NCBI GenBank assembly: GCA_020628065.1
Contig: JAHDFR010000012.1
Span: 1 to 48,884, forward strand
Direction of reading: 5' to 3'
DNA from: Acidimicrobiales bacterium
GTDB lineage: Bacteria > Actinomycetota > Acidimicrobiia > Acidimicrobiales > SZUA-35
DNA length: 48,884 bases
The notes beneath the pieces are model-generated. The model searched no databases and was not told the origin of the DNA. It was given only the letters and a program-made list of their open reading frames with translations. Numbering within the stretch: the first letter of the stretch is position 1; every line of letters begins with the position of its first letter. Both the position numbers and the translations under genes were made by a program. Below are positions 39,604 through 43,363 of this stretch, piece after piece.

Positions 39604-39671
39604 CCGGCAGATCAACCGAGCAGATCTGCTTGTCAGCCCTCCAGCACCGGTCTCGCCCACAACAAGCATCT

Positions 39672-39781
39672 AAGGAGGCTAGCGAGCAGGGTGCCAGCGG
39701 TAGTGGGCTCCTTGCGATCGGGCCCTTGGCCGAAGGGCCATTTGATGCTTAGGACGTGCGCCTACCGGCGCACGTCCTAAG
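39672..39781 (+). repeat. Dispersed hairpin repeat, copy A
   Basis: About 110 bp, a close relative of 43191-43312 in the same orientation. It contains a 7-bp hairpin (GGCCCTT/AAGGGCC) and ends in a perfect 15-bp inverted repeat, 39748-39762 and 39767-39781, with a 4-nt loop. The end of the hairpin overlaps the -10 TAAGCT (39778-39783) of crcB. Confidence 0.85.
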
Positions 39782-39783
39782 CT
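39778..39783 (+). promoter_or_regulatory. -10 element TAAGCT of the crcB pair
   Basis: TAAGCT lies 6 nt before GTG 39790, partly formed by the end of the repeat's hairpin. Confidence 0.45.
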
Positions 39784-39789
39784 TGTTGC

Positions 39790-40179
39790 GTGAGTGGCGA
39801 GTCGGCCGTCCAAAGATCAACGGCTCAACTGCTGGTTGTGGGGCTGGGAGGCGCTGCCGGCTCAGGTCTCCGATGGCTGGTCACCGACTCCATGGGCGAA
39901 CAAAACGCTCACCTGTCGCTGTTCATCGTCAACATCGCCGGTTCACTTCTGCTCGGCCTGCTGGCCGCCCATCCAACCCGACGGAACAGCGATCTCTCCC
40001 TGTTTCTTGGTGTTGGTTTCGCCGGGGGTTTGACGACGTTTTCCACCTTCGCGGTGGAGGTCGCCCGCCAACTCGATGATGGGGTGATTGCCGGCGCAGC
40101 GCTCAACAGCGTGGGCACTGCGGCGGCGGCCTTACTGGCGGCTGGTGTTGGCTATCGTCTAGGGCGGGCCAGCCTTTGA
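39790..40179 (+). CDS. crcB: Fluoride channel subunit CrcB (first of pair)
   Basis: 129 residues, four hydrophobic helices. CrcB/Fluc lets fluoride leave the cell. GGAAGSGLRWLVTDSMG, FIVNIAGSLLLGLLA with the conserved Asn, and GFAGGLTTFSTFAVEV with the Phe-box residues are all present, so this subunit keeps the canonical pore motifs. The start is GTG 39790. Its TGA overlaps the TTG of the second copy. Heterodimeric Fluc pairs like this are usual in many Gram-positives. No fluoride riboswitch lies upstream. Confidence 0.9.
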   Translation: MSGESAVQRSTAQLLVVGLGGAAGSGLRWLVTDSMGEQNAHLSLFIVNIAGSLLLGLLAAHPTRRNSDLSLFLGVGFAGGLTTFSTFAVEVARQLDDGVIAGAALNSVGTAAAALLAAGVGYRLGRASL

Positions 40180-40535
40180 CCGCGAGTTGGGCGGTGGTGG
40201 GAGGCTTTGTCCTGGCGGCGGCGATGGGAGCTGTTGTCCGGTTTGTGATCTCGTCGTATCTCAACAACGAGTTTCCGTACGGAACCCTGGCCATCAACCT
40301 CGTTTCATCGCTCGTACTCGGCTATCTGGCCGGCTCCGGTATCGGTGAGCAATGGGCATTGGTCGTTGGTGTCGGTGGGCTCGGCGCCCTGTCGACCTGG
40401 TCAACGGCGGCCAACGAGGCGGCCACCATGGCCCGCCGGAACGAGGGATGGCTGGCGATCGCCTACTTGGCCCTTCTGGTGCTCTCTGGGATTGTTATGG
40501 CCTGGATCGGGATGCAGATCGGCCAGGGGCGATAG
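40176..40535 (+). CDS. crcB: Fluoride channel subunit CrcB (second of pair)
   Basis: 119 residues, four hydrophobic helices. It keeps GGFVLAAAMGAVVRFVISSYL and INLVSSLVLGYLAGSG, but the GGLTTFST region is changed to VGGLGALSTWSTAANEA. It is therefore the divergent partner that would pair with the first copy in an antiparallel heterodimer. The start is TTG 40176 (overlap TTGA), a rare codon here, so its level may be tied to the first gene. Confidence 0.85.
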   Translation: MTASWAVVGGFVLAAAMGAVVRFVISSYLNNEFPYGTLAINLVSSLVLGYLAGSGIGEQWALVVGVGGLGALSTWSTAANEAATMARRNEGWLAIAYLALLVLSGIVMAWIGMQIGQGR

Positions 40536-40561
40536 GCCACCAACGTCAATGCGGTTGCTCC

Positions 40562-40900
40562 CTAGGAGCCCGCGTCTTCACAACTGATGCTGTACTCGAC
40601 CAGGATCTCATCGGTCTCAGGGTCGACGGCGCTGACGTAGCCTTCGACCAGGTCAGGGTCGTCAAGACACTGCTGGCGAGCAAGTTCTTTCATTTGGTCG
40701 GTCGGCTGCAGCGGGTGGCTCACGTCGGGAATATCGTCCAGGGCGGGGGCCGGAGTGGTTGGCGGGTTGGCCGGGTCGATGGGGACTGCTTCCTCTTGGA
40801 CGCAGGCCGCAGTCAAAACAGCCAGCCCGACCATCAGTCCGAAAAGCAGTCCGACGTTTACTCTTGCCACCAACGGTCGCACTGAACTCTGCGAGAACAC
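40562..40900 (-). CDS. Small lipoprotein of unknown function
   Basis: 112 residues. Hydrophobic signal VNVGLLFGLMVGLAVLTAAC ends in a lipobox-like TAAC, so Cys33 is the likely lipidation site. The mature part starts VQEEAVPIDPANPPTTPAPALDD (flexible) and holds two more cysteines (QQCLDDPD, ISCEDAG) that could pair. No family recognised. GTG 40900 has TATCGT 6 nt upstream. Confidence 0.65.
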   Translation of the reverse strand: MFSQSSVRPLVARVNVGLLFGLMVGLAVLTAACVQEEAVPIDPANPPTTPAPALDDIPDVSHPLQPTDQMKELARQQCLDDPDLVEGYVSAVDPETDEILVEYSISCEDAGS

Positions 40901-40906
40901 TCTGGC

Positions 40907-40912
40907 ACGATA
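40907..40912 (-). promoter_or_regulatory. -10 element TATCGT of the lipoprotein gene
   Basis: TATCGT lies 6 nt before GTG 40900. Confidence 0.45.
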
Positions 40913-40952
40913 CCCACAGGATTACGGCGTTGATGCCGATACTTGATTGAGC

Positions 40953-41870
40953 ATGACAACCGCCCGACGCGTCCGATTCAGCTATCCACCGGAGACCAGA
41001 CCTGTCTGGACTCCGCATCGGCCTGAGTTCTCCTGCGCCGCCAACAGCGTGTCCCTGCTGATGCCGGCCATCGAGCCCTATTTCGTCCGATCGGCCCGCC
41101 GCGCCCTGCCGGCCCTGAACGAATCTTTAAGAGCCGAGGCCGAGATCTACATCGAACAGGAGGCACAACACTTCGGGCAACACGTTGTCTTCAACCGCCT
41201 ACTGCTTGACCGCTACTCGTCGCTTGCCCGCTTGGAAGTGCTGTCCAAAAAGATCTACCGCGACCTTGAAGCCTCAAGGTCACTGGAATTCAGCCTGGCT
41301 TTTGCCGCTTCATCGGAAACTATGGCCTACTCAGCCGCCCGGTGGGCAGCCGCTCGACGACGGGAGCTGTTCAGCGATCCGGCCACCGATGAAACAGCGG
41401 CAACCCTCTTTCTTTGGCATTTGGCCGAAGAGGTGGAACACAAGTCTGTTGCTCACGACATCTACCGTGCCGCGGTTCGGCCCTCAGCCCGCTCCATGGC
41501 CTCCCCGAAGTTCGTCGCCGCCATGTTGCTGTCTTTGGCCCTGGTGGTCTTCTTCGTATTTGCCGGAACGTCGATCATGCTGTGGGCCGAACGTCGATTC
41601 TTCCACCCGCTGGCCTGGATACGTCTCATTCGATGGGTGATCCTGTTCTCCTTCGAGCTACTAACGAACCTCACGTTGAGCCTGCTCCCCGGCTTCCATC
41701 CTGCCGACTTCGCTGACCCGACGTTCTATGACGTCTGGCTTGACGAGTTCGACGCGGCATCCGGAACGATTCCGCTATGGAACACCGTTGATCAGGCCCC
41801 CGGAAGTCAGTACACCGGAAATCAGGGCAGTGTCGACCATGACGCCGGCAGTCAGTACACCGACCACTAG
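40953..41870 (+). CDS. Metal-dependent hydrolase-like protein (PF10118 type)
   Basis: 305 residues of the predicted metal-dependent hydrolase family PF10118. Helical ligand motifs IEQEAQHFGQH and WHLAEEVEHKSVAHDIY look like a di-metal four-helix site, reminiscent of ferritin-like enzymes. The hydrophobic stretch AAMLLSLALVVFFVFAGTSIML may be a membrane helix. ATG 40953 is taken as start, 9 nt after GATACT; TTG 40947 is an alternative. The C-terminus runs into a roughly 30-bp tandem repeat, giving the tail GSQYTGNQGSVDHDAGSQYTDH. Function not known. Confidence 0.7.
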   Translation: MTTARRVRFSYPPETRPVWTPHRPEFSCAANSVSLLMPAIEPYFVRSARRALPALNESLRAEAEIYIEQEAQHFGQHVVFNRLLLDRYSSLARLEVLSKKIYRDLEASRSLEFSLAFAASSETMAYSAARWAAARRRELFSDPATDETAATLFLWHLAEEVEHKSVAHDIYRAAVRPSARSMASPKFVAAMLLSLALVVFFVFAGTSIMLWAERRFFHPLAWIRLIRWVILFSFELLTNLTLSLLPGFHPADFADPTFYDVWLDEFDAASGTIPLWNTVDQAPGSQYTGNQGSVDHDAGSQYTDH

Positions 41871-41894
41871 GACGCCGGCAATAAGTGCACCGAC
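41799..41894. repeat. Roughly 30-bp repeats across the 3' end of the PF10118-type gene
   Basis: Three copies of a GCCGGCAGTCAGTACACCGA-like unit at 41799-41820, 41841-41866 and 41871-41894. The first two encode the tail GSQYT..; the third is beyond the stop, so the repeat spans the end of the gene. Confidence 0.75.
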
Positions 41895-41984
41895 ATAAGT
41901 ACAGGGCCGGCTGTCAACCTCGACCAGCGAGAGTAGATCTCACCGTCGATCGGTAGGCCGTCCGAATCACTGCTCATACAGATT

Positions 41985-43202
41985 TTGGGCAACGCTGCCG
42001 ATGCTCCGCCCGTGAATATTGCGGCGGATATTATCGATCATGGAGCGCGGCCACGACCTTTGGCCACCGCAACACCGACCAGGTCAGGCATCGTTCGTGA
42101 TCCGTTGACAGGACTCGGCGTCAAGAACGACTTCCAGCGGTTGGTCAACCAGCGACACATGGAACGAGAACGCTTCGGTGTCGTCATGATCCGTATCTCA
42201 TCGCTCGACCACATCAACAACACCCACGGCCTCACCACCGGGGACGACGTTCTTGAAGAAGTCGGGGACGCTCTTCACGAACTCCAATCCTCAGCCATCC
42301 GGGCCTACCGGATTGGCGGATCCACGTTCGCAACGGTGGTTGAGGGACTCCGGCTCAACGATCGCCACTGGGCCGATCAAGTCGTTGACGCCGCCGCCAG
42401 CGCTGGGGCCAGGATGGAGGCACCCACCCGGTTCCACGCCGGCGCAGCCGCCGGATACGGCGACACGGTGGTGGAGGTGGCCGAGCGTCAGCTGGCCGAC
42501 AGTCGAAGGGCCGACACCATGGCCTCGGTAGATCAGATGGGACGTCATCTGATCGCCGCGCCCAAGGACTGGGACATCGTTCCCGTCGTCGGATCAACAG
42601 CCAAATGGCGCTGGCTGCGACCCAGACGTACCGGCCCCGACCACGACGTGTGGGACCTGCTGAAAGACGTCGCCCAGCGCCTCAACGACGATTCGGCGGC
42701 ACGCTTCTCGGTACCGGGAAGCGACATCGCCCGCACCGACCGCTCGATCGCCCAGAGACTGTTTCCGTTCTTGGAGCGACACCGCATCTCTCCCAGGCGT
42801 CTGGCCTTCGAACTCAACGCTTCAATGTTCGATCCCCTGGTCACGGGCGATCAGCTGCAGCGGGCCACCCAGTTCGCCAGGGAGGCGACCGCAATTGGCG
42901 CCACCATCGTTGTGAACGAGTACGGCGGTCAGCCCAGCATCTGGAGCAGCCTTCCAACAGCTCACGTCAGCTACATCAAACCAAGTCGAGAGTTTCTCTT
43001 GAAGGCTGTGGCCGGTGAGGCCATGAGCCAGCCAATCGACATGTTGTCCCGGGCGTCCTCGGCGATGAACATCGAACTGATTTCCCCTTACCCGGTCAAA
43101 GCAACCGACGACAACGAAGCAACGAAGCCGCTGGCCACCAACATGGAGCTACTGGCCCTGGGGTTCTCCTACGTGGAACAGCCTGCCGACCAAGGAGCCT
43201 AG
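41985..43202 (+). CDS. Degenerate GGDEF-EAL protein
   Basis: 405 residues. The N-terminal part follows a GGDEF domain: DPLTGLGVKNDFQRLV, VVMIRISSLDHINNTHGLTTGDDVLEEVGDAL, then AYRIGGSTFATVVEG where the catalytic GG[DE]EF should be. The C-terminal part follows an EAL domain without its motifs: WDIVPVVGSTAKWRWLRPRR replaces the EAL region, FELNASMF the ELTE motif, and NEYGGQPSIW the DDFGTG loop. So neither c-di-GMP synthesis nor breakdown is expected; a sensor or binding role is possible. The start is uncertain: TTG 41985 (4 nt after CATACA) or GTG 42012. The stop lies inside dispersed-repeat copy B. Confidence 0.7.
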   Translation: MGNAADAPPVNIAADIIDHGARPRPLATATPTRSGIVRDPLTGLGVKNDFQRLVNQRHMERERFGVVMIRISSLDHINNTHGLTTGDDVLEEVGDALHELQSSAIRAYRIGGSTFATVVEGLRLNDRHWADQVVDAAASAGARMEAPTRFHAGAAAGYGDTVVEVAERQLADSRRADTMASVDQMGRHLIAAPKDWDIVPVVGSTAKWRWLRPRRTGPDHDVWDLLKDVAQRLNDDSAARFSVPGSDIARTDRSIAQRLFPFLERHRISPRRLAFELNASMFDPLVTGDQLQRATQFAREATAIGATIVVNEYGGQPSIWSSLPTAHVSYIKPSREFLLKAVAGEAMSQPIDMLSRASSAMNIELISPYPVKATDDNEATKPLATNMELLALGFSYVEQPADQGA

Positions 43203-43312
43203 CGAGTAGGCATTCAGCGCCAGCGGGCCCTTGCGATGAGGCCTTGGCCGAAGAGCCATTTGATGCTAGCCATTTGATGCTCAGGACGTGCGACTACTCA
43301 CGCAGGTCCTAG
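43191..43312 (+). repeat. Dispersed hairpin repeat, copy B
   Basis: Same orientation as copy A and alignable over its whole length, with an internal duplication of a 15-bp GCCATTTGATGCTA segment (43255-43281). The terminal hairpin is imperfect (AGGAC.TGCG/CGCA.GTCCT). It starts within the last codons of the GGDEF-EAL gene and runs into the region before the oxygenase gene. Confidence 0.8.
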
Positions 43313-43363
43313 GCGCCCGCATCGACAGCAGCGTTGGCCCCGTGACTATCCTCGAATACCACG

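Follow-up and report, generated by a model that had tools for sequence, protein, structure and literature searches.

A probable IS5-type MITE family with TNA target duplications in an uncultured Acidimicrobiales bacterium

Described relatives and the element family

Short non-coding elements with the ends of insertion sequences (ISs) are found in several bacterial groups. Within the IS5 family, insertions of the IS1031 group are flanked exclusively by 3-bp TNA repeats and have 17-bp inverted repeats in the example given (PMC12016507). Miniature inverted-repeat transposable elements (MITEs) of IS5 type are also known, BrickBuilt of Porphyromonas gingivalis being a small, multicopy element with IS5-type ends of which many copies lack an end (PMC4596501). 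RUP of Streptococcus pneumoniae, Correia/NEMIS of Neisseria and ERIC of enterobacteria measure about 107-155 bp, with terminal inverted repeats (TIRs), TA ends and a target duplication (PMC2229807). In eukaryotes, PIF/Harbinger relatives choose TWA, and a related group inserts at C|TNA|G, as does NuwaII (PMC4482050). In this study, we analysed a window of 48,884 nt, the whole stretch of contig JAHDFR010000012.1 (assembly GCA_020628065.1, Acidimicrobiales) examined, which holds two copies, A and B, of a short repeat. The repeat is very probably a non-coding, non-autonomous MITE of about 104 bp with imperfect 18-bp TIRs and a palindromic right end, mobilised in trans by an IS5-type (IS1031-like) transposase that we infer from the ends and the target.

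The element resembles the IS1031 group in its 3-bp TNA duplication and the length of its inverted repeats, and BrickBuilt in being small, multicopy and often short of an end; unlike both, it has a long palindromic right end and no parent IS was found for it, the ends having been compared by description. The duplications of BrickBuilt vary in length, unlike those seen here. RUP, Correia and ERIC, set beside the element likewise by description, are similar in size and structure and live in other phyla, and RUP is linked to IS630-Spn1 and to targets of TA, whereas in the present element the third base agrees as well. PIF/Harbinger and NuwaII choose and duplicate their targets in a similar way; their hosts are eukaryotes and the likeness is limited to target choice. 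The element thus belongs to a new family of a well-known kind, and we place it in no named family. Our literature search found no paper joining Acidimicrobiia with MITEs, the matches for Acidimicrobiales and MITEs being, by title, on bees, soils and groundwater. A group of uncultured Acidimicrobiia thereby gains a MITE superfamily whose ends and target are defined, an aid in the search for the transposase and in strain typing.

The first-pass annotation, made from the window's letters, had described two repeats aligning over their length in the same orientation, and alignment and a whole-genome search with copy A placed both where it had put them, with the true ends slightly further out on the left. 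All features given here lie on the forward strand. Copy A has a body of 104 bp (39674-39777, by alignment and genome search) between a left target duplication TAA (39671-39673, from flank comparison and the single TAG of an empty site in a relative) and a right TAA (39778-39780), the latter also forming the first three bases of a presumed -10 box, TAAGCT, of crcB. Its left TIR, GGAGGCTAGCGAGCAGGG (39674-39691), equals the reverse complement of its right end at 10 of 18 bases. A short core hairpin, GGCCGAAGGGCC (39728-39739), lies in the block most common to relatives, and the right end is itself palindromic, the consensus of the family between its ends being GCGATGAGGCCTTGGCCGAAGAGCC. The terminal hairpin folds into a stem as perfect as first described, of 16 bp (39747-39762 with 39767-39782) and not 15, closed by a 4-base loop; its outer arm contains the right TIR and extends through the target duplication. 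Copy B, with a body of 116 bp (43194-43309, found in the same ways), is decayed. It carries a tandem duplication already noticed in the first pass, whose length is 14 bp rather than 15 (AGCCATTTGATGCT twice, at 43254-43267 and 43268-43281), and its terminal hairpin (43279-43314) has a mismatched stem with a fold z of -1.7, in agreement with the decay reported earlier. Its right flank is TAG (43310-43312) and the left counterpart CAA (43191-43193).

The first-pass annotation had held that a lack of further copies would speak against its reading, and at least 18 dispersed copies or fragments were found in the host genome (G000; 5,429,105 bases in 432 contigs, 95.2% complete) with copy A as query, a consensus, a covariance model and end patterns. 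This number is a lower bound, as 150 of 3057 candidates were scored in one search. With copy A as query, B was recovered at E 1.7e-13 and unlinked copies at values down to E 7e-30. Six copies have both ends (A, B, C289, C197, C311 and C376), four have the core and right end (C271, C237, C126, C390), three the left end and core (C302, C66, C287), two the left end only (C340, C255), and three places keep parts of the right end only (C177, C68, C228); a possible nineteenth place, C302:98225, is weak (E 0.006). The copies in C197 and C289 are 99% alike, which suggests fairly recent movement, and A is 86% like those two. The family is short, multicopy and dispersed, and the body of copy A is too short to encode a transposase, as expected of a MITE. 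Neither a plasmid match nor a copy in the viral contigs searched was found for the host-genome family. A phage origin was considered, since the core has 24-32 nt in common with four Caulobacter phages; in the two inspected the match lies inside hypothetical genes, and it was taken as chance. The copy in C376 (81952-81984) is a 23-bp miniature made only of the left and right ends head to head, with TAA on both flanks.

Sister families occur in relatives. Among 39 genomes of the bacterial family, the host included, 10 were matched by the model at E 0.01 or below. Seven copies of 109-112 nt were found in G014, which belongs to another genus, and five copies of 119 nt in G004, of the same genus; G003 and G008 gave two matches each and five further genomes one weak match each. 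The G014 and G004 copies carry the same ends as the host family. Compared with one copy per family, the ends are alike on both the left and the right (at most 1 of 2000 shuffles as high); the likeness of the middles does not exceed chance (P 0.62, 0.19 and 0.09). The core block, or the left half with the core, also occurs in gene spacers of G003, G008, G013, G023 and G037, and these blocks are perhaps ancient remnants of such elements. In G023 (contig C423, 1435-1525 of the stretch) one gene spacer contains a 33-bp unit three times in tandem, and the core block is present in every unit. A scan of GTDB with the core gave five loci, two of them in metagenome-assembled genomes of Acidimicrobiia; the other three, from Stenotrophomonas, Rhodocyclaceae and Loktanella, have low model scores (E 0.0013 to 0.094).

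Ends, target duplication and empty sites

The ends are imperfect 18-bp inverted repeats in which 10-13 of the 18 bases match (shuffle P 0.0002-0.04 in the four copies examined), the best being 13 of 18 in C197 and in C56 of G004. The left end reads C-TNA-GGAGCCTAGCGAGTAGGC, and the right end of C197, as reverse complement, reads GGACGTGCGCGAGTAGGC. A target duplication, proposed in the first-pass annotation as a check, was found: of the 18 two-ended copies, which come from three genomes, 13 have identical 3-bp TNA flanks (nine TAA/TAA, four TTA/TTA), as compared with a mean of 7.8 under shuffled pairing (P 0.0038). A Fisher test on the flanks covered the 15 copies flanked on each side by TAA or TTA, and the same question was then put to all 18. 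In four copies the flanks differ at one base (C197, C177 of G014, and C127 and C186 of G004), and inverted-identical flanks occur in 2 of the 18. With boundaries at GG...CC, flank lengths of 2 and of 4-9 showed no excess of identity in the 18 copies. The left TNA is preceded by C in 16 of 18 and the right TNA followed by G in 14 of 18, thus the target is C|TNA|G. We propose that an IS5-type DDE transposase, IS1031-like and making a 3-bp TNA stagger at C|TNA|G, would be supplied in trans, recognise ends of the form GGA-N5-GCSRRTAGGC, mobilise the element and join it into a TNA target whose three bases are thereby duplicated; the element probably depends on another element's transposase for its movement.

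The pairing of the terminal hairpin is kept between families. In an alignment of 16 of the 18 two-ended copies, namely all except B and the 23-bp C376, 104 of 112 cells of the 7-pair inner hairpin pair (92.9%), and shifting the partners by 1-3 columns drops pairing to 23-55%. In three pairs both partners have changed (1.1 when shuffled; 9 of 500 as high), with seven double-change cells (shuffled 1.2; 0 of 500 as high); six of these seven come from three near-identical G004 copies and therefore represent few independent events, and further pair types are at chance level (345 of 500 shuffles as high). The right-end alignment displayed comprises 10 host-genome right ends, those of C68, C228 and C376 being left aside.

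An empty site was found for copy A. Its hydrolase-crcB neighbourhood was matched in 10 of the 11 relatives from the genus, several of which have the two genes side by side. At this place the relative G007 reads AGCATC-TAG-GCTGTTGTAG-GTG, with a single TAG, and the host genome reads AGCATC-TAA-[104 bp]-TAA-GCTTGTTGC-GTG, 40 nt separating the insertion site from a common AGCAGATCTGCT palindrome in both. This palindrome (39619-39630 of the window), between the divergent hydrolase gene and crcB and retained in G007, is possibly a regulator site. The B site of G007 (GCCGAC-TGA-CTTAAGG, compared with GCCGAC-CAAGGAG...TCC-TAGG in the host) is empty but diverged, and judged from the two sequences there is no insert in G007 and a local loss of bases in the host. 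The copy in C197 is in antisense orientation, with a CNNM/CBS/CorC gene on one side and the gene of an Era-like GTPase (called era; domains MMR_HSR1 and KH_2) on the other, a few bases before the ATG of the latter; no insert precedes era in any of the 7 relatives fetched among 11 with a match, their spacers being too different to place the junction. The spacer matching the C289 locus in G009 is likewise too diverged for the junction to be placed. Upstream of a FIST-domain gene, the spacer of C289 (1280-1480 of the stretch) and G009 is unusually conserved between the two species; it holds the inverted pair ATCCACTGGA...TCCAGTGGAT, followed by a hairpin rich in G+C and by a block containing CCCACTCGAACC and GAGTGTAGG.

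Alternative explanations

The first-pass annotation had left the choice between a small mobile element, MITE- or REP-like, and an RNA. Copies, inverted-repeat ends, 3-bp duplications and empty sites argue for the MITE, and neither a REP element moved by a RAYT nor an RNA is supported. One rival is a Tc1/mariner-like MITE of IS630 type with a 2-bp TA duplication, comparable to RUP or Correia elements. It was favoured at first for the TA flanks at nearly every end, TA being present in the three bases of the right junction in 18 of 18 two-ended copies and of the left junction in 15 of 18, and a TA duplication suits the G007 empty site equally well. It was demoted once the N of TNA was seen to agree between the ends in 13 of 18 copies, as TA alone requires ends ragged by one base; moreover, DDE_3 (PF13358) gave no match in the host genome while 3 of 14 control genomes were positive, and we regard the IS630 type as unlikely. 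Shortness, intergenic position, a hairpin at the right end and numerous degraded copies would also suit a REP/REPIN-like palindrome moved without target duplication by a Y1 tyrosine transposase (RAYT or IS200/IS605), an origin that is scarcely credible given the duplicated flanks and the lack of any Y1_Tnp (PF01797) match in the host genome, 5 of 14 control genomes being positive.

A duplicated structured regulatory RNA or transcription terminator would account for the fold of copy A, better than that of shuffles on either strand (z -5.4 and -7.4), for the hairpin pairs changed on both sides and for the longer core stem of G008. The copies, however, stand in either orientation to genes, one being antisense inside an operon, and the middles of families with the same ends are alike only at chance level. 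No T run follows the hairpin of copy A on its 3' side, and Rfam 15 gave no match at gathering score in the window, permissive thresholds yielding only unrelated families below their gathering scores. A helix in the left half, aligned from 11 hand-picked left halves, shows four double-change cells (shuffled 1.6; 16 of 500 as high) and two pairs with a double change (shuffled 1.3; 225 of 500 as high), which is weak support, and we consider an RNA origin very improbable. A hammerhead- or k-turn-like core was considered by eye only and dropped. A different proposal concerns the architecture of the family: modular elements in which a single pair of ends with C|TNA|G as target, and with a right palindrome held by selection, would have taken up unrelated middles at least three times in the bacterial family, the middle GCGATGA-stem-GAAGAGCC, with its longer stem in G008, being a mobile part, either a structured RNA or a site for protein binding, that also stands alone in spacers of several relatives. 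This is speculative and we hold it to be doubtful; if true, the element would spread a ready-made regulatory part, placed here in the -10 box of crcB.

Several points weigh against an IS5-type MITE. At least one end is absent in 12 of the 18 host-genome copies, and two copies (C376 and C228) were called from 16-base pattern matches, with two mismatches and one respectively, together with reading by eye. The TIRs are imperfect, in copy A (10 of 18; shuffle P 0.04) as in C91 of G014 (P 0.02), and the flanks of copy B mismatch each other at two bases. The element ends were chosen by eye, with the first GG and the last CC as boundaries. Other boundaries would allow a 2-bp TA duplication, the ends then being ragged by one base, or a 5-bp CTNAG duplication, which would look the same as a 3-bp one, an ambiguity reported for NuwaII too (PMC4482050). 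The same source gives the duplication of the bacterial IS5 transposon as ANT and not TNA; as TNA is given for the IS1031 group, IS5 targets evidently vary. Neither a transposase nor a full-length element with these ends was found, IS5-type transposases having not been searched for. The left-end pattern had 8 matches in the host genome, seven known copies and one other, and no parent element; the right-end pattern, at up to three mismatches, had 26 including the known copies, below the 34 of a reversed control. In G014, 813,361 bases in 60 stretches (44 of the 60 in a second parent search) gave two known copies, one fragment and no parent element. For the host genome such an absence is weak, the assembly being 95% complete and in 432 contigs.

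Neighbouring genes, stop codons and crcB

None of 30 copies (18 in the host genome, seven in G014, five in G004) lies in a gene's interior, although some overlap the last few codons, the genes having been called from codon usage by a simple finder for which the window was the sole training sequence. The junction forms the stop codon of the neighbouring gene in 9 of the 30 copies (7 of 18 in the host genome), and a stop codon lies inside the element in B, C66, C390 and C135 of G014. In copy B this is the TAG (43200-43202) of the upstream GGDEF/EAL gene, as the first-pass annotation had recognised in letting the copy begin in a gene's stop region. A special targeting of stop codons was rejected (9 of 30 versus 27 of 136 non-coding TA of the window in stop codons, P 0.12; P 0.05 for the host genome), and since TA is scarce outside genes such junctions need no special preference. 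Insertions there should do little harm because the duplicated TNA with the element's first base remakes TAA or TAG.

The crcB gene (39790-40179; CrcB family, Pfam CRCB 1.6e-21) starts with GTG 9 nt past the right TAA of copy A. The earlier suggestion that the end of copy A forms part of the -10 of crcB still appears sound, as this TAA begins the TAAGCT that ends 6 nt before the GTG; from the form of actinobacterial promoters we presume TAAGCT to be the -10 box of a leaderless crcB promoter. Without the insert, G007 has TAGGCT 7 nt before its crcB GTG. Copies thus seem to be tolerated in spacers, at stop codons and, in one case, in a presumed -10 box, where TNA and the next base would restore a stop codon or a TANNNT box. 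The family would in this way illustrate how a compact, G+C-rich genome can tolerate a TNA-targeting element, the stop codon or -10 box in which it lands being restorable, and any effect of copy A on crcB expression becomes testable. Further along the window, two adjoining crcB-type genes span 39790-40535, the second frame overlapping the end of the first and Pfam CRCB being matched in both, and they likely encode a two-subunit exporter. Three imperfect 31-bp direct repeats (41787-41892) stand at the 3' end of the frame 40947-41870 and just beyond it.

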